Shown: positions 4,987 through 18,216 of the stretch, piece after piece
How positions within the stretch are numbered: the first letter of the stretch is position 1
Layout: the number at the start of each line of letters is the position of its first letter
Virus record (IMG/VR): IMGVR_UViG_3300034061_002704
Coordinates: 1-21,595 of that record
DNA length: 21,595 nt
Direction: 5' to 3' (one strand)
Source of the DNA: a virus
Notes under the pieces: model-generated
Databases searched by the model: none
What the model was told of the DNA's origin: nothing
What the model saw: the letters and a program-made list of their open reading frames with translations, nothing else
Made by a program: the position numbers and the translations under genes

Positions 4987-5412
4987 TCAGGCGTCTCCCG
5001 CTTTGCCACCGCTGCCCTCTTGCGGGCTTCCCCCTGCGGCTGGGGCTGTTTCTTCTTTCGCATCTGCGTCCAGCTGTCGTGCCACGGCATCGGTGTCTTC
5101 CTTCCAAGTTGCTGCGTCTTCGACCGTGTTCCTCGCTGCGAGCCATGCGCTCATCAGCTTGTTGGTCCATCTGCCGTCCCACTCCTCGCCATCCAAAGCG
5201 TCGATCAGCAGCACCAAGCGGGCGTGTATCCACTTCGCCTTCCTGGCGATCTGCGCGTCGGTCAGCATGGGTAGCGGGTCCGGCCCCCGACGGCCCGTAG
5301 GCTTCGGGGCGGCGCGTCGCCGCCGCTCGAAGACCTCGGGCTGCCGGGCCTCGAACTCGTTCCACTCGCGCGTTGTCGGCGGGTGGCCCTCGTTGATGCG
5401 ACGGTCGCTCAT
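4987..5412 (-). CDS. hypothetical protein, early operon
   Basis: A 141-residue protein whose ATG overlaps the bet stop (ATGA). The first 50 residues are basic and Pro-rich (RRRRAAPKPTGRRGPDPLP), the middle is helical and Trp-rich (ARKAKWIHARLVLLIDALDG, then EEWDGRWTNKLMSAWLAARN), and the last 30 residues are an acidic, Gly/Ala-rich tail. I do not recognise the family. Direct coupling to bet suggests a partner in recombination or single-strand DNA handling; an acidic tail and basic head would fit a DNA-associated accessory protein, but that is inference. About 100 bases separate it from the next start. Confidence 0.7.
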   Translation of the reverse strand: MSDRRINEGHPPTTREWNEFEARQPEVFERRRRAAPKPTGRRGPDPLPMLTDAQIARKAKWIHARLVLLIDALDGEEWDGRWTNKLMSAWLAARNTVEDAATWKEDTDAVARQLDADAKEETAPAAGGSPQEGSGGKAGDA

Positions 5413-6077
5413 CGCGCGTGTGCCTCCGCGTCGATCTCCTCCGCGTCGAAGTGCTCCACGCCGTTGTCTTCGGCATCGACGTGCGTGATGCGGGCCACCT
5501 GCTGGCGGGCCTGCTGCACGTTCACGGCCACGTTCACGCTCGGCCGCATCCGGTCGGCCTCGTCGGGATCGACGATGCCGCTGAAGCCGAAGGCCGCCCG
5601 GTACGCCTGGATGCGTGCTTTATGGCGAAGCATCCTGGCTGGCCACCGTCGCCATGGGTCCGTGTTCTGGACGCACTCGGCCATGTACTCCGTCACCTCT
5701 TCGGGGTGGGCACGGTCCTTGCGGTGGACGCGAGCCGTCACCGCCACCAACTTCCCCTGGTCGTCGATCCGGTCGATGAACTCGATGCCGTCGTACTGCG
5801 GGTGGCTGTTGGCGAGCTTGATCCAGCCATCCACGCTGACGATGGGCTGAATGCCGCCGCCCTTCTTGGGGAAGGCGTAGAGCTCGCGGAGCACCGGGTT
5901 CAAGCAGTACTCGTTGGCCACCAGCAAGAACGCGGCGAACTCTTCCTTGGTCGCGTTGTCGCAGCCGCACGTCTTGCGAACGGTCTGCTCGAACGCCTGG
6001 GCCTCCATCCCGAATCTGCTGGCCAGAGTCAGCAGGATGCTCTTGCGGTCCTGCGTGTTTGCAATCTGCGTCGTCAT
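5409..6077 (-). CDS. bet: Bet/RecT-family single-strand DNA annealing protein
   Basis: A 222-residue recombinase that binds single-stranded DNA and anneals complementary strands, as Redbeta of phage lambda does. The similarity to lambda Bet runs over most of the length: EFAAFLLVANEYCLNPVLRE (like FIALLIVANQYGLNPWTKE), LYAFPKKGGGIQPIVSVDGW, PQYDGIEF, VHRKDRAHPEEVTEYMAEC, PWRRWPARMLRHKARIQ and AAFGFSGIVDPDEADR. The C-terminal 45 residues are acidic and divergent. ATG 6077 has an AAGGAAAGAAAGG purine-rich leader. Lambda Bet works with the Exo nuclease and Gam; no such partner is recognisable in this window. It heads the run of replication and recombination genes, with rusA at the far end. Confidence 0.95.
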   Translation of the reverse strand: MTTQIANTQDRKSILLTLASRFGMEAQAFEQTVRKTCGCDNATKEEFAAFLLVANEYCLNPVLRELYAFPKKGGGIQPIVSVDGWIKLANSHPQYDGIEFIDRIDDQGKLVAVTARVHRKDRAHPEEVTEYMAECVQNTDPWRRWPARMLRHKARIQAYRAAFGFSGIVDPDEADRMRPSVNVAVNVQQARQQVARITHVDAEDNGVEHFDAEEIDAEAHAR

Positions 6078-7078: not shown

Positions 7079-7124
7079 TAGGCTTCCCTGCGTCACGGAT
7101 TCAAGTGGAGGATAGGGGAACGAA

Positions 7125-7140
7125 ACTAATGTACACTAGT
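7125..7140. promoter_or_regulatory. imperfect 16-base palindrome upstream of the integrase
   Basis: ACTAATGTACACTAGT reads nearly the same on the other strand (two symmetric mismatches around a TGTACA centre). It lies 27 bases before the integrase ATG and just upstream of its ribosome binding site. It could be an operator for the integrase or an integrase arm/core-type site. TACACT inside it may also serve as a -10 box, though no good -35 is seen. Confidence 0.4.
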
Positions 7141-7167
7141 GGTCGTTACCCGCAGGAGGAGCCAGCG

Positions 7168-8055
7168 ATGTTACTTCGAGATGTTCTTCAAAACGAGTAC
7201 GCCCCTTTGCGGACGCTAAAGCCGCAGGCGATGAGGCAGTATCAACTGACCCTGACCAGATGGTGCGAGACGCTGGGGCGCGAGCCGACGATGGATGACC
7301 TTCAGCCGCTCGTCGTCCAGGCGTTCCTCTCGGCCCGCCGCACCAAGGTGTCCGCCGCCTCGGTTCGGAAGGATCGGACGCACGTCTGCTGCCTGTGGTC
7401 CTACTGTGCCAAGGTTCGCCGCACCCGCTCTGACGGCCAACTGCTGGAGTTTCCCACCGTCGCCCCGGTGCGAGCCCCTACGAGGCTTCCACGGGCCTAC
7501 CGGGTGGCCGATGTCTCGGCCTTGGTGCGCACGGCCCTCGGCTACCCATCGCCCGTCTGCGGGCTTCCTGGGGGCTTGTACTACGCCAGCATGATCCGCA
7601 TGTGCTGGGAGACGGCCAGCCGCATCGGAGCCGTGAGGCAGCTGCGGTGGGGCGAAGTGGACCTCGAAGGGCGGGCGGTCATCTTCCTGGCCGAAACCAC
7701 CAAGACCGGCGACCGGGATCTGCGGCGGGCGATCTCGCCCGAGTTGGCCGGGTGGCTGAGGCAGATCGAGCGGAAGCCGAACGACCTCGTGTTTCCCTGG
7801 GACCGCGACCCGACGAGCCTGTGGTACGAGTTCAAGAAGATCTGCCGGGTGGCGGGGGTGCAGCCGAGGGGCTTCCACGCGCTCCGCAAGAGTAACGCCA
7901 GTTATGTGACGGCCGCCGCCGGGGTCGGGGAAGCCGCCAGCGTCTGCGGTCACAAAGACAGCAAGGTGACCATCGACCACTACATCGACGAGACGATTGC
8001 GAAGCCGAAGCATACGGCCCTCGACTTCCTGCCGCCGCTCGACCTGAGCGAATGA
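7168..8055 (+). CDS. int: tyrosine recombinase / phage integrase
   Basis: A 295-residue site-specific tyrosine recombinase that would insert and excise the phage genome at attachment sites. The start ATG 7168 is set by AGGAGGA (7154-7160) seven bases upstream; an earlier in-frame ATG at 7105 lacks such a site. Residues 1-100 form the SAM-like core-binding domain (PQAMRQYQLTLTRWCETLGR, then VSAASVRKDRTHVCCLWSYC). The catalytic domain shows Arg152 (TASRIGAVRQLRW), Lys179 (TTKTGDRD), His237 and Arg240 (HALRK), His262 (CGHKDS) and the nucleophile Tyr272 (DHYID). All catalytic positions are intact. This is the only plus-strand gene, lying between the structural and early modules and divergent from the HTH regulator. 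Confidence 0.95.
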   Translation: MLLRDVLQNEYAPLRTLKPQAMRQYQLTLTRWCETLGREPTMDDLQPLVVQAFLSARRTKVSAASVRKDRTHVCCLWSYCAKVRRTRSDGQLLEFPTVAPVRAPTRLPRAYRVADVSALVRTALGYPSPVCGLPGGLYYASMIRMCWETASRIGAVRQLRWGEVDLEGRAVIFLAETTKTGDRDLRRAISPELAGWLRQIERKPNDLVFPWDRDPTSLWYEFKKICRVAGVQPRGFHALRKSNASYVTAAAGVGEAASVCGHKDSKVTIDHYIDETIAKPKHTALDFLPPLDLSE

Positions 8056-13376: not shown

Positions 13377-16300
13377 TCACCCCATTCTCGCCGCGCCGAC
13401 AATCGCCACCGGCTGGTTGAAGTAGTTCGATGCGGCACCCGTGATGCCCGATGCGATGGCGTTGAGCAGCCGCGTCTGGAGGCGGGCCTCGATGAGCGCG
13501 GGGTCTTGGGCCTGTGCGGCCACGTCCTGCACCAACGCCTGCCCCTCGGCGGTGCGAATGTCAGCGACGTTTACGCTGGCGTTCGTCGGCCGCGTCAGCG
13601 CCTCCATCCGGCGGGCCTGCTCCTCCGCGACGCGGGCACTCTGGGCCAGGGCGGCGTTCGCCCCGGCGTAGGCGTTTTGGAAGCCTTGCAGGAAGGCGTC
13701 GTTCTGGCGGGCGACGAGCGATTGAAACTGCTGGGCGGCGCTGCTGCCCTGCTGCAACTGCTGGGCCTGCTGGCGGTTGGCCTGCACGCGGCCGTCCACG
13801 ATGCCCTGCTCAATGCGCTGCGCTTTTTCAAGCTCACGGATCCGCTTGGCTCCTTCGCGGGCCTCACCAAAACGGCGCTGGGCCCTGTCGGCTTCGTTCT
13901 TGCGCCTCTCTTCTTCTAGCTTCGCCTCTATGGCCTGGACGTTTATGGCCGCTTCCTTCTTTCGCTCCTCCAGTTGCTTGGCGGCTTCAAGTTCGGCTTT
14001 CTGCCGCTCGTCCAACTTGCTGGTCAGAAAATCCTCAACGCGCTGAGCTCCGGCCAGTCGCTCATTGAAAATCTCTCTTTGCTTAGCGACTTCCTGCTGA
14101 TACTGCTCAGCGGTCAAAGTTCCGGCGCGGGCCTGTTGCTGGGCGCGCTCTATGGCATCGCCAATCCCCGTGGCGGCGAACACGGCAGTGGCGCGCCCAA
14201 ACTCTTGGCGGGCTTGCTCGACCGCCTCCCTTGTTTTGCGGTCAGTTTCCTCAAACGTCTTATCAAAGCTTTCGCTGAAACCTTTTGCGGCAGCGAGCTC
14301 TTGCTCCTTAAGTTTCGCTTCGATCTGATCCAGCTGCGCGAGGCGGGCCGCAGCGGCATCGGCTGCGATAACGGCCCCGTCCTTGCGGGCGGCGTTGATC
14401 TCATCAACCAACTGCTTCTGCTGCCGCAGCACGAACTCCAGATCCGTTTCGCGCTGCCCCGCCTCTCCCTGAGCCGCCACGATCTGGTCGAGCCGCTGCT
14501 TGTCGGCGGCAGCGATACCCCGCTGCAATTCCTCAATCTTCGTGAACGCCTCGACCTGCTTCTGGTATTCAGCGTTAGCGGCGGCGGCGTTCTGGCGAAG
14601 CGTGGCTTCATTGATGATCCGCTTGCCGAACTGCTGCTCAAGTTGCTCAATGGCCTTCTGATACTTGAGGGCTGCGTCGAAGCCAGCCTGGCCGAAGCGG
14701 GCCGAGTCTTCGATGGCGACGTTCAACTGCGCCCGCACCGTCTCGACGGCCTTGGCGGCGGCGGCGTTTTCCTGCTCGGTGGCGCGGCGGGAATCCTCGG
14801 CGGACTGGCGGCGAACGTCGGCCTCCTCCTTGATCGCCTCAATCCGCTTGCTGAAATCCGCGAAGGCGTTCTTCTGGGCGGCTGCCAACTGCTCCTGTGA
14901 GAGGCCAGCGTCCTCCGCTGCGGCGGCCACATCCTCAAGCGACTTCACCAAGGCTTCCACGGCCTTCGAGCCTTCGCTCCCAAACGCCGCAGCCTGCTCT
15001 TGGGCCTTGCCGATCTCGCCAGACAGGTTGATTGCGCCGTCGATGGACTGGTTGAGCGACGCCACAAAATCGGCAAAGGCTTGGTTTGATGCCAGCCGCT
15101 GCGATTCTTGGATGGCTTCATTCCGCCGCTTGAGCAGTTCAGCGTCAGCCTGAAGGCGGGCCTGCGTCTTTTGGAACCCGAGGAAGGTCCGGTCGCTCGC
15201 CGTGTCGTCCAGGGCGCGAATCAGCCGGTTGATGCCGCCAAGCGATTCGGCGGTCGAGTTGGCAATGGCCGTGCCGATCCCGGCGAAGTTGGCGGTGATC
15301 TGGCGGTAGAGTCCCTGCGACGCCACGCCCACGCGATCCATCGCCCCGCCGAAGGCGTCGATGTCGGCACGCTGTTGATCGGTGAGCGCCCCGCCGAGCC
15401 GCTCCAGGTCGGCCGCAGCCGCCCCGAGTTGCCCGATCACCGGCAGCAGTTCGGCCCCGCTCTTCCCGAAGAGCGCCATGGCCGTGGCTGTCCGCTGGGC
15501 CGGGTCTGGCAGCTGGGCCAACGCCTGCGCCGCTTGCTGAAAAAGCGTCTCGGGGTTGCCGTCACGAACGGCGTCGGTGCTGATCCGCAGATTCTTGAAC
15601 GCCTCCACGGCCGACTTCGTGCCGTCGCGGGCTTCGTTCACTGCCCGCAGGAACCGGGTGAACCCGCCGCCCAACTGCTCGACGCTGGTGCCTGTTTGCA
15701 GGGCCGCCGCCTCGAGCACTTGGATGAACGAGAACGACACGCCGACGCGATCCGCCAACTGACCGAGCCGCTCCACCTCGCCTTCGAGCTGAATCAGATT
15801 GCGGCCAGCCGCCACGGCCCCGGCACCCAGCGCCGCAAACGCAGCAGCCCCTGCGGTGAATGGATTGATAAGACCGGCCACGCTCGCGCCGATGTTGGCG
15901 ATGCCGGTCTGGAGGCCACCGGCAAACACACGGCCGAGCCCTTCACCTGCCGACGCAAGGCCAGAAAGGCGACCGGCCACGTTGCCAATCGGGCCGGGCA
16001 GGGCCGCAAGGATGCCACTGAGTTCGTTGAACTTGAGTACGCCCGCGTCGCCTGCCTGCTGCACCGCTTGGCCAGACTTGTTGGCGGCAATGGTGGCCTT
16101 CGCAAACAGGTCGGCCTGCCTGTTTAGTTCGCGGTTAAACTCTTGCTTCGTTAGCAGCCCGGCCTGCTCCAGTGCGGCAGCAGCACGCACCTCCTTGTCG
16201 AATCGCTCCTGTGCGTTCAGGTTCCGCTGGCGAATGGATTCGGCCTGCGACTCCAAGGCAGCACGCTCGCGGACGGCCTGCGCTGCGGCCTGCTCTTCAA

Positions 16301-16835
16301 GCCTGCGGGCCTCGGCGAACGCCTCGGCCTGCTGCTTCTCAGCAGCGGAGACGGCATCGGACCGAGCCTTGGCCGATGCGGCGGCTTGCTTGTCAAGGCC
16401 GAGCCGCTCAATGGCAAATGCGTTCAGTGCTTGCTGGTCAATGGCACCGCGTTGCTGTAGATCCACTGCCCTTGCGATTTCGTCGGCAGTAACCCTTGCC
16501 TGGTCTCCGTACTGCTTCTGGATGCGAACGCCTTCCGCAAACGCTTCCGACGCTGCCTTCGCTTCCTGCGTCAGTTGGGCAAACGCAGCGGCATATTCCT
16601 GCGGGCCAATCGCCTTGGCCTGCAACTGATCGGCGAGCCTGGCAAACCGCTCCGCAAACCGCTCCTGCTCGGCTGCCGCAGCGGCCGACCGCTCCGTGAA
16701 TGGGGCGAAAACGGCCGTGGACTTCTCGACCTGCGAGCTGAGACTCTGAAGCGCACGCTCGGCCTGCGTGAGCGACTTTGGGACGCTAGAGGCGTCCGCT
16801 GTCACCTTCATCGCTAGGCCGAGGATTGTTGCCAT
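13377..16835 (-). CDS. phage tail tape measure protein
   Basis: At 1152 residues this is by far the largest gene. It is dominated by Ala/Glu/Gln/Arg-rich coiled-coil (for example residues about 60-260 and 580-1080) broken by a hydrophobic, glycine-rich region near residues 270-345 (LNPFTAGAAAFAALGAGAVA) and a TP901-like tape-measure core (LGQLADRVGVSFSFIQVLEA, TSVEQLGGGFTRFLRAVNEA, ALFGKSGAELLPVIG) near 355-470. Such proteins set tail length and later help DNA entry. Using about 0.15 nm per residue, the tail would be near 170 nm. ATG 16835 follows the chaperone stop by five bases. It comes after the tail tube and chaperone genes, as in lambda-like phages. Confidence 0.93.
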   Translation of the reverse strand: MATILGLAMKVTADASSVPKSLTQAERALQSLSSQVEKSTAVFAPFTERSAAAAAEQERFAERFARLADQLQAKAIGPQEYAAAFAQLTQEAKAASEAFAEGVRIQKQYGDQARVTADEIARAVDLQQRGAIDQQALNAFAIERLGLDKQAAASAKARSDAVSAAEKQQAEAFAEARRLEEQAAAQAVRERAALESQAESIRQRNLNAQERFDKEVRAAAALEQAGLLTKQEFNRELNRQADLFAKATIAANKSGQAVQQAGDAGVLKFNELSGILAALPGPIGNVAGRLSGLASAGEGLGRVFAGGLQTGIANIGASVAGLINPFTAGAAAFAALGAGAVAAGRNLIQLEGEVERLGQLADRVGVSFSFIQVLEAAALQTGTSVEQLGGGFTRFLRAVNEARDGTKSAVEAFKNLRISTDAVRDGNPETLFQQAAQALAQLPDPAQRTATAMALFGKSGAELLPVIGQLGAAAADLERLGGALTDQQRADIDAFGGAMDRVGVASQGLYRQITANFAGIGTAIANSTAESLGGINRLIRALDDTASDRTFLGFQKTQARLQADAELLKRRNEAIQESQRLASNQAFADFVASLNQSIDGAINLSGEIGKAQEQAAAFGSEGSKAVEALVKSLEDVAAAAEDAGLSQEQLAAAQKNAFADFSKRIEAIKEEADVRRQSAEDSRRATEQENAAAAKAVETVRAQLNVAIEDSARFGQAGFDAALKYQKAIEQLEQQFGKRIINEATLRQNAAAANAEYQKQVEAFTKIEELQRGIAAADKQRLDQIVAAQGEAGQRETDLEFVLRQQKQLVDEINAARKDGAVIAADAAAARLAQLDQIEAKLKEQELAAAKGFSESFDKTFEETDRKTREAVEQARQEFGRATAVFAATGIGDAIERAQQQARAGTLTAEQYQQEVAKQREIFNERLAGAQRVEDFLTSKLDERQKAELEAAKQLEERKKEAAINVQAIEAKLEEERRKNEADRAQRRFGEAREGAKRIRELEKAQRIEQGIVDGRVQANRQQAQQLQQGSSAAQQFQSLVARQNDAFLQGFQNAYAGANAALAQSARVAEEQARRMEALTRPTNASVNVADIRTAEGQALVQDVAAQAQDPALIEARLQTRLLNAIASGITGAASNYFNQPVAIVGAARMG

Positions 16836-16840
16836 GATTG

Positions 16841-17146
16841 TTACCCGAGTGCTCCGAGGAGCTTCTGCAATTCCTGCTTCATCTGGTCCGGGTGTTGCGG
16901 CGGCTTCTCAATCGGATTGAAGTCACTGGCCTGCGGAGCCTTGCCCTTCTGTGCGTATGGGGCCAAGACCGCCGAGGCGATGAGGCCCGTTTCCGCCCAC
17001 GAGTCGGGGATGGCTTCGTAGTAGCGCGTGTATGCGATCCACTCCGTGAGTTCTCGGCTGTCCATCCGCATGGACAACTCGCCGACCGTCATGCCCAAGT
17101 GCCCCGCCAGCCGAAACAGAAACCGTCTCAGCGGGCGGATGTTCAG
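16841..17146 (-). CDS. tail assembly chaperone, second frame (GT-like extension made by -1 frameshift)
   Basis: This frame has no convincing start codon of its own near its left boundary and begins as an extension of the upstream chaperone. Slippage on A AAA AAC gives 101 extra residues reading LNIRPLRRFLFRLAGHLGMT, then RELTEWIAYTRYYEAIPDSW, TGLIASAVLAPYAQKG and a helical end. The T-domain pattern (an ELTEW followed by PDSW and LIASAV) resembles lambda gpGT-like proteins. The fusion would be about 215 residues in total. It lies directly before the tape measure gene, which such chaperones keep unaggregated during tail assembly. An internal ATG (GMTVGEL) could make a shorter independent product. 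Confidence 0.82.
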   Translation of the reverse strand: MNIRPLRRFLFRLAGHLGMTVGELSMRMDSRELTEWIAYTRYYEAIPDSWAETGLIASAVLAPYAQKGKAPQASDFNPIEKPPQHPDQMKQELQKLLGALG

Positions 17147-17487
17147 TTTTTTGCCAACTCCTCCACGTCCGCTTCGCTCATGGCGTTGTGCTTCGTGGCC
17201 TTCTCGAACAGCCGCGACATGACGGCCGAGCTTTTCTGGCCGAGTTTTTCGATCTGCTCCCGCGTGAAAAGCAGGCTGCCCTTCTCGTCGCAGAGCACCC
17301 GCTGGAGATACTCCGTGCGGAAGTTGTCGATGCCGGTATCGCGCTTGCCAATCCACATCCGCTCGTAGGCGTCACGCTCGGCCACGCTCATCACGCGGAT
17401 GAACACGCTGCCGCCCCACTCCTTGACCTTCACTTCAAGAAGGGCGGCGTCGTCTGCGGCGAGAATCTGGTCTGCGGTCAGTGCCAT
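17143..17487 (-). CDS. tail assembly chaperone, first frame (G-like)
   Basis: A 114-residue protein in the lambda gpG position between tail tube and tape measure genes. ATG 17487 is chosen because GAGGA lies five bases upstream; ATG 17499 (four residues longer, in an ATGA overlap) is possible. The sequence has a small beta-rich part (LEVKVKEWGGSVFIRVMSVA) followed by helices (ERDAYERMWIGK, EYLQRVLCDEKG, REQIEKLGQKSSAVMSRLFE). This E/D-rich, small N-domain is typical of tail chaperones. It ends EELAKN-stop right at the slippery heptamer, so most ribosomes terminate here and a fraction continue in the -1 frame. Confidence 0.85.
   Translation of the reverse strand: MALTADQILAADDAALLEVKVKEWGGSVFIRVMSVAERDAYERMWIGKRDTGIDNFRTEYLQRVLCDEKGSLLFTREQIEKLGQKSSAVMSRLFEKATKHNAMSEADVEELAKN
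17146..17152 (-). other. programmed -1 ribosomal frameshift slippery heptamer A AAA AAC
   Basis: The minus strand reads GCA AAA AAC TGA in the G-like frame, a perfect X XXY YYZ slippery site followed at once by the stop. In the -1 frame reading continues AAA AAA CTG AAC with no stop until 16841. The downstream stretch is GC-rich and may form a stimulatory hairpin, but I did not find a clear strong pseudoknot by eye. Confidence 0.85.
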
Positions 17488-17495
17488 TTCATTCC

Positions 17496-17816
17496 TCATT
17501 CAGGCGTGATTTTGAACGTCACCGCATACCGTGCGATGTCGTTGACTTTGCCCGAGAGTTGCACCCGCTCGCAGATCGCCTTGGTGGAAAACGTCAGCCC
17601 ACCACCAGAGATGGCGAGCGTGGCTTTCCTGCCGTATTGGGCCAGCGAGACGTTGGCAGTGCTCAGGCACGAAATATCTATAGTGCCTGCGTCAAATGCC
17701 CAGGTGCTCGCACGCGCGAGCGGCATGCTGCCGCCCGCGTTGACCTTGATCTCCACGACCTCGCCGAAGTTCGTGGAGTTCCACGACGCTGTGACGCCCG
17801 CGCACTCTGTAGCCAT
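17496..17816 (-). CDS. tail tube-like protein, copy 2
   Basis: A 106-residue beta-strand-rich protein with many Ser, Thr and Val (EVVEIKVNAGGSMPLARAST, DISCLSTANVSLAQYGRKAT, LAISGGGLTFSTK, VNDIARYAVTFKI). Its C-terminal half aligns by eye with the preceding gene's product (IDxSxL, then A-L-I...G..F, VND...VTFK), so the two are probably related tail tube or tail-capping proteins. ATG 17816 is 19 bases after the previous stop. Its end overlaps the alternative chaperone start. Position immediately before the chaperone fits major tail protein; which copy is the real tube subunit is unclear. Confidence 0.72.
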   Translation of the reverse strand: MATECAGVTASWNSTNFGEVVEIKVNAGGSMPLARASTWAFDAGTIDISCLSTANVSLAQYGRKATLAISGGGLTFSTKAICERVQLSGKVNDIARYAVTFKITPE

Positions 17817-17835: not shown

Positions 17836-18216
17836 TTAGCGGGCAACCTTAAAGGTGGCCGTGCCCTTGATCGTGTCGTTCACCGCGAACGTGACGCTCG
17901 ACGAGGCAACCGTGGCATTCGCCGACAGGAACGAAACACCGGAGTGCGTGATCACCAGGGCGGCGCTGGAGGCGTCCGCGATGATGCTCTTGCCGAGGTA
18001 CTCAATGGTGACCTCGCGGCCGGTGTCCGAAACCGAGCCGGTCAGCGGCCGGTCGATGGTGCGGACGCTGTTGCCCGTCGTGATGCCGAGGTGCGAAACG
18101 TCGATCTTGTCTTCGGTCGCCGGATCGGTGAGGGCATACACGATGTTCGTGACTGTGAAGGCCGTTCCACCGAACGTGAAGACGGTTCCTGCACCATCAT
18201 GGGGCGTTGCGGACAT
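17836..18216 (-). CDS. tail tube / major tail protein-like, copy 1
   Basis: A 126-residue protein with the strand pattern of siphovirus tail tube subunits: GTVFTFGGTAFTVTNIVYAL, a conserved-looking EDKIDVSHLGITTGNSVR, then REVTIEYLGKSII, AALVITHSGVSFLS, SSSVTFAVND and GTATFKV. Tail tube proteins polymerise into hexameric rings around the tape measure. The start ATG 18216 has AGGAG nine bases upstream, inside the end of the previous gene. It lies between the tail completion protein and a shorter paralogue, in the normal order for long-tailed phages. Likely the major tail protein, though no profile search was possible. Confidence 0.78.
   Translation of the reverse strand: MSATPHDGAGTVFTFGGTAFTVTNIVYALTDPATEDKIDVSHLGITTGNSVRTIDRPLTGSVSDTGREVTIEYLGKSIIADASSAALVITHSGVSFLSANATVASSSVTFAVNDTIKGTATFKVAR

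Follow-up and report, generated by a model that had tools for sequence, protein, structure and literature searches.

Probable programmed -1 frameshifting between two tail chaperone frames of an IMG/VR virus, and a possible coupling of stop position to a 3' hairpin

Programmed -1 ribosomal frameshifting at an A_AAA_AAC heptamer very probably yields two tail chaperones from one message, G and a G-T fusion, in the virus represented by IMG/VR record IMGVR_UViG_3300034061_002704. The whole 21,595-base record (positions 1 to 21,595) was analysed and is referred to here as the window. Most ribosomes would read AAA AAC and stop at the adjacent TGA to give G, while a minority would slip back one base on the heptamer, bypass the stop and continue through 101 codons of T to give the G-T fusion. 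The slip would consist of tandem one-base slippage of the AAA and AAC tRNAs, with a downstream hairpin as 3' stimulator. If assembly proceeds as in lambda, the tape measure protein would be coated by many molecules of G and few of G-T, with the T part recruiting the tail tube protein.

Two tail chaperone frames around one slippery site

The G, T and tape measure genes all lie on the minus strand in the order G, T, tape measure, with the tape measure gene directly after the G/T pair, as in lambda-type pairs (Table 1). The 3' end of G reads GAG TTG GCA AAA AAC TGA, such that GC[A AAA AAC] TGA occupies 17154-17143 of the minus strand. The sequence confirms what the preliminary description had read there, namely a perfect heptamer followed immediately by the zero-frame stop and a -1 frame open for 101 codons past it. 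Counted from the first base of the heptamer, the -1 frame comprises 103 codons and has its stop at 16843-16841. T is expected only as part of a G-T fusion, predicted from the two frames to have about 214 residues. The K-K-L-N junction that had been proposed for this fusion stands as one possibility, the other being A-K-N-L-N, which tandem slippage after decoding of AAC would give. A start of G at ATG 17499 is less likely than that at ATG 17484, which is preceded by GAGGA and agrees with the matches of many relatives, which begin at residue 5 (the MALT start).

Table 1. Features of the tail chaperone region of the window
Feature	Position	Strand	Remarks
G-like tail assembly chaperone frame	17143..17484	-	113 aa from ATG 17484; ends AAA AAC TGA
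Slippery heptamer A_AAA_AAC	17146..17152	-	read from sequence
Zero-frame stop TGA, adjoining the heptamer	17143..17145	-	same place in relatives as TGA, TAA or TAG
T-like -1 frame (gpT homologue)	16841..17152	-	Pfam PF06223, phrog_337; conserved residues before first possible start
Predicted RNA hairpin, 6 nt 3' of heptamer	17103..17139	-	stems 17139-17134/17108-17103 and 17132-17123/17119-17110
Tape measure protein, expected chaperone client	13377..16835	-	1152 residues; phrog_8462, E 2.8e-20
Possible major tail protein	17836..18216	-	by place only

The assignment of the two frames as G-like and gpT-like tail chaperones, made earlier without database searches, is supported by family matches and by an HK97-like model of G. 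T matches PF06223 (Phage_tail_T, Minor tail protein T) with 30.5 bits, above the cut-off of 25.9, and phrog_337 with an E value of 1.6e-16. G, queried from 17499, matches phrog_344 (tail assembly chaperone) with an E value of 2.1e-24. Its match to the Pfam family Phage_TAC_13 reaches 15.7 bits, below the cut-off of 28.8, and the fold of G was therefore checked by an AlphaFold2 model (pLDDT 79). The top PDB match of this model is the HK97 chaperone 2OB9 (probability 1.00, E 3.7e-3), with a TM-score of 0.51-0.56 and 21-25% identity. Sequence searches of solved structures with the G and T profiles returned unrelated or designed proteins only.

The heptamer stands out beyond chance by its phase, place and conservation, not by its occurrence alone: AAAAAAC is present twice in the window, counting both strands, compared with 1.24 expected, and 35 of 100 shuffles contain as many. 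According to the available text of PMC5009743, A_AAA_AAC shifts less readily in E. coli than A_AAA_AAG does. Together with a hairpin, a weak slippery site would be suited to a low level of fusion protein.

Upstream of G, the candidate major tail protein (18216-17836, 126 residues) has no convincing family match in Pfam or PHROG. Between it and G lies a 106-residue minus-strand frame (17496-17816), also without a family match, which resembles the preceding frame in length and ending and is perhaps a duplicated tail protein. Elsewhere in the window are a sliding clamp homologue (DNA polymerase III beta subunit; 1127-2263, minus) in which all three Pfam domains are present, a RecT-family recombinase (5412-6077, minus) and, on the opposite strand to the latter, an integrase (7105-8052, plus). 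The presence of the recombinase and integrase suggests a temperate phage.

Conservation of the junction and reading of T

The junction was compared in 160 IMG/VR loci, of which 80 were found by T and 80 by G. All of the T-found loci read GCA AAA AAC TRA. Among the G-found loci, those near to the window read GCA AAA AAC and the others GGA AAA G(G/A)(C/T) followed by the stop, which places G_GGA_AAA one codon upstream while the position of the stop is unmoved. A canonical heptamer with a stop at the junction is present in all 160. The search pattern, which covers these two heptamer forms only, missed none of the 160 IMG/VR loci and was passed by 162 of 170 sources (the window, the 160 loci and phage AbIPP1); the remaining eight are L001, in which T is absent, and seven named phages that were read by hand. 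The 162 loci represent 105 distinct junctions, 55 of the form GCAAAAAAC and 50 of the form GGAAAAG(G/A)(C/T). Read across these junctions, the heptamer is replaced among relatives, not lost. The preliminary description had named loss of the heptamer in close relatives as evidence against frameshifting; a slippery heptamer is kept throughout, with A_AAA_AAC itself swapped for G_GGA_AAA in the second group. A single origin of A_AAA_AAC was considered and rejected, as the trees need at least two (G) and at least three (T) changes between heptamer types, although they are built on few columns and have weak support.

The two halves of the junction differ in their nearest relatives. Compared with users of G_GGA_AAA, the nucleotide identity of the window G is up to 0.84 and that of T is 0.59-0.69. 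Compared with A_AAA_AAC users of the L019 type, the values are about 0.61-0.66 for G and 0.68-0.72 for T. Over the 60 nt that start with the heptamer, the window is likewise nearer to the L019-type users. Since G is, outside its own clade, closest to the G_GGA_AAA users and the sequence just past the junction is nearer to the L019 type, an exchange with its breakpoint at the slippery site is possible (17152-17103; comparisons with L019, L101, L107 and L010).

A heptamer-unbiased test was provided by scanning GTDB genomes with the T alignment alone. This gave 49 loci in Streptomyces and other actinobacteria, Moraxella, Psychrobacter, Paraburkholderia, Emcibacter, a SAR92 bacterium, Planctomycetales and others. 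T lies in the -1 frame against a long frame at all 49 loci, even though +1 was allowed. An in-phase XXXYYYZ is present in 45 of the 49 overlaps (1367 positions) compared with 10/4900 and 18/3934 control positions, the exceptions being L178, L197, L198 and L200. The commonest heptamers are GGGAAAC (16 loci) and AAAAAAC (15).

With the addition of four viral scans, 509 sequences gave 508 T matches, of which 495 were analysed, 10 had no usable G and three (L169, L498 and L499) were scored as +1. The heptamer was sought in the final 50 codons of each overlap; if several were present, the one with Y = A or T and then the one nearest the stop was taken. A strict heptamer is missing in 14 of the 495 loci. 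Clustering at 85% T identity gave 171 representatives, 161 of them with a heptamer (GGGAAAC 74, AAAAAAC 55, GGGAAAA 14, others 18). With AAAAAAC in 55 and a stop-adjacent site in 86 of the 161, the heptamer and adjacent stop of the window are ordinary for the T family. Eight loci with T in -1 (L178, L198, L200, L272, L273, L274, L421 and L432) have a GGG GAA junction followed by a stop in place of a strict XXXYYYZ, possibly a looser slippery site. In L164, L166 and L168 (Rhodococcus phages Madraxi and REQ1 and Thermobifida phage P1312) T is also in -1 and the overlap lacks a strict heptamer.

The variability of codon positions marks the point at which the T frame begins to be read. Across 31 representatives, drawn from 101 usable rows and compared as an ungapped block, zero-frame position 3 is the most variable before the junction (mean entropy 1.01 compared with 0.45 and 0.35). 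Just after it, over the 16 codons that precede M21 of T, zero-frame position 2, which is T-frame position 3, is the most variable (1.10 compared with 0.41 and 0.67). To judge from this periodicity, T is translated from the slippery site onward, before any usable start. In the window no T-frame ATG, GTG or TTG occurs from the heptamer to T residue 19, in agreement with the earlier remark that the second frame has no convincing start near its beginning. In many relatives the T frame is closed by a stop 3 to 17 codons upstream of the heptamer, which leaves little room for an upstream start. Furthermore, 118 of 156 representatives contain no ATG, GTG or TTG in the stretch from the last T-frame stop to the F-x-F-R-L-A-like motif (of the 161, five were dropped for want of a recognisable motif).

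These observations bear directly on whether T is instead a separate gene, reinitiated at ATG 17092 (T residue 21) after termination of G. The G stop is about 50 nt upstream of this ATG, which is present in 31 of 31 window-group representatives and may serve as a minor internal start, and several database entries annotate G and T as two genes. However, the codons upstream of ATG 17092 already show T-frame periodicity, and T residues R9, F13, L15, A16 and L19, all of which precede M21, are invariant in 26 aligned proteins including those of named phages. M21 itself is replaced by K or Y in the T proteins of Moraxella, AbIPP1 and P1312. The sequence that precedes the ATG, GGCGGGGCACTTGGGC, contains no good ribosome-binding site, and a separate gene would leave the retention of the heptamer without a reason. 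We consider reinitiation very unlikely as the source of T.

Transcriptional slippage on the run of six A at the site would also fuse G to T, but the available text of PMC3711429 ties transcriptional realignment to A runs longer than 7, homologous sites such as GGGAAAC, GGGAAAA and GGGTTTC contain no long run, and the shift is -1 at 49 of 49 genome loci, all of which makes slippage of the polymerase highly improbable. Misassembly, or decay of a gene by frameshift mutation, might be proposed as the source of the frame change in a single virus fragment such as the window. The identical change in 162 of 162 junction loci, which include other contigs and one named phage, its occurrence in bacterial genomes and the purifying selection on both frames leave this with practically no credence, and on comparison of the relatives' sequences it is already refuted. 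Programmed ribosomal frameshifting would instead be a common and often unannotated recoding event of this family. G and T are annotated as joined genes in two Streptomyces phages, and T-like genes annotated separately, for example in Moraxella phage Mcat32 and Acinetobacter phage AbIPP1, may need joining.

Hairpin and stop position

A hairpin is predicted 6 nt past the heptamer (Table 1). It was not mentioned in the preliminary description, is new here for this locus and is a candidate 3' stimulator that would probably increase the slip rate. It is more stable than dinucleotide shuffles (z -2.75 and -2.47) and than synonymous-codon nulls in which the protein is kept (z -3.91; 0 of 300 as stable). 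Against the same type of null, 24 of 31 window-group representatives have z < -2 and 28 have z < -1, compared with mean z values of -0.87 to +0.65 for six other stretches of T. The exact pairing is less constant. RNAalifold on a 160-column alignment did not find the hairpin, and covariation for the named structure is modest (72.4% of cells paired compared with 67.3% when shuffled; 4 pairs with changes on both sides compared with 2.8), both because the stem register differs between groups. Stability is, as far as these alignments indicate, conserved more than the exact base pairs.

A Shine-Dalgarno-like stimulator on the 5' side was considered and rejected. The GAGGAG that precedes the heptamer is free to change at third codon positions (GAA/GAG, GAC/GAT) and codes for the conserved DVEEL. 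Across the family, words of this kind located 3-18 nt upstream are, if anything, more frequent at stop-distal sites.

Among the 161 representatives the distance from the heptamer to the zero-frame stop is clustered, at 0-3 nt in 86 and 33-36 nt in 48. The RNA past stop-adjacent sites has a mean z of -2.18, with z < -2 in 45 of 86, whereas that past stop-distal sites has a mean z of -0.18, with z < -2 in 8 of 75. The structure signal is limited to the first windows past the heptamer and peaks in the window starting 6 nt in; in stretches 60 and 120 nt further on the two classes are alike. The contrast persists within each common heptamer and within every GC class in which both sides are represented by more than a few members. 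Against synonymous nulls, the 42 nt after the heptamer of stop-distal representatives are slightly less structured than expected (mean z +0.58), as if structure were avoided.

Phylogenetic generalised least squares on the T tree retained the association, giving a slope of -1.66 with p 0.0006 when lambda was fitted (0.89) and p 0.006 at lambda near 1, compared with p 0.35 to 0.84 for the downstream control stretches. An independent-pairs test was underpowered (6 supported pairs, or 13 on all branches) and had a median p of 0.5; at a threshold of -1.5, pairs in the same direction averaged 2.5 and those in the opposite direction 0.1. Among the nearest opposite-state pairs listed, 13 of 15 are in the predicted direction, some by little. 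As the sample consists of representatives of one protein family and the tree was built on about 100 columns, the association is a lead and not a rule.

We tentatively suggest, with doubt somewhat outweighing confidence, that the family contains two cassette designs, one with a stop within the next one or two codons and a selected 3' hairpin, and the other with a stop tens of bases on (mostly 33-36 nt) and no hairpin. Early termination may be the reason, by keeping zero-frame ribosomes off the hairpin. On a busy message, termination next to the heptamer would keep the bulk of these ribosomes from unwinding the hairpin, which on our hypothesis would thereby be present for each arriving ribosome. 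If the coupling holds in other families, it would amount to a simple rule of design for -1 frameshifting in bacteria and would aid prediction tools. Xu et al. (2004) is said to be the main comparative paper on the tail chaperone frameshift. In the literature searched, including the available portions of PMC10885494 and PMC5009743, no statement of a link between stop position and hairpin was found; the PRFect prediction tool, as described in the former, uses the distance to the stop and the folding energy as two distinct features.

Relation to known systems

The parallel with lambda G/G-T drawn in the preliminary description extends to protein families, gene order and phase. In both systems the pair precedes the tape measure gene, a -1 frameshift occurs near the end of G, and the T domain is of the same Pfam family. 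The lambda heptamer is G_GGA_AAG, whereas the window has A_AAA_AAC with an adjacent stop and its G is only weakly like Pfam chaperone models. The distinctiveness that had been implied for this heptamer and its adjoining stop is not upheld, both being in print. According to the available text of PMC5009743, lambda gpG and gpGT bind the tape measure protein in a 30:1 ratio. The best fold match of the window G model is the HK97 tail assembly chaperone 2OB9, though TM-score and identity are low.

The nearest published arrangement is that of Acinetobacter phage Loki, in which, base-level comparison aside, AAAAAAC adjoins the stop of the G-like gp12 in the gp12/gp13 pair as in the window; the same motif is given for IME_AB3 (both in the available text of PMC5313236). 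AAAAAAC is also found, in other phage groups, in the tail chaperones of the Caulobacter phiCbK group (excerpts of PMC3556154) and, as A_AAA_AAC, among the tail sites of haloarchaeal HCTV-1, -2 and -5 (excerpts of PMC5009743), and possibly in Paenibacillus phage Dragolir (excerpts of PMC6003738). Colossus has GGGAAAC where its phiCbK relatives have AAAAAAC (PMC3556154), and the rest of the phiCbK and HCTV sets use GGGAAAC or GGGAAAG (PMC3556154, PMC5009743, same excerpts). Turnover of the heptamer is thus already known from the mixture within these sets. The available portions of PMC3556154 and PMC5009743 contain no mention of a hairpin tied to stop position. The present locus adds to a known class of tail chaperone frameshifts, and its new part is the hairpin and the link of that hairpin to the position of the stop.
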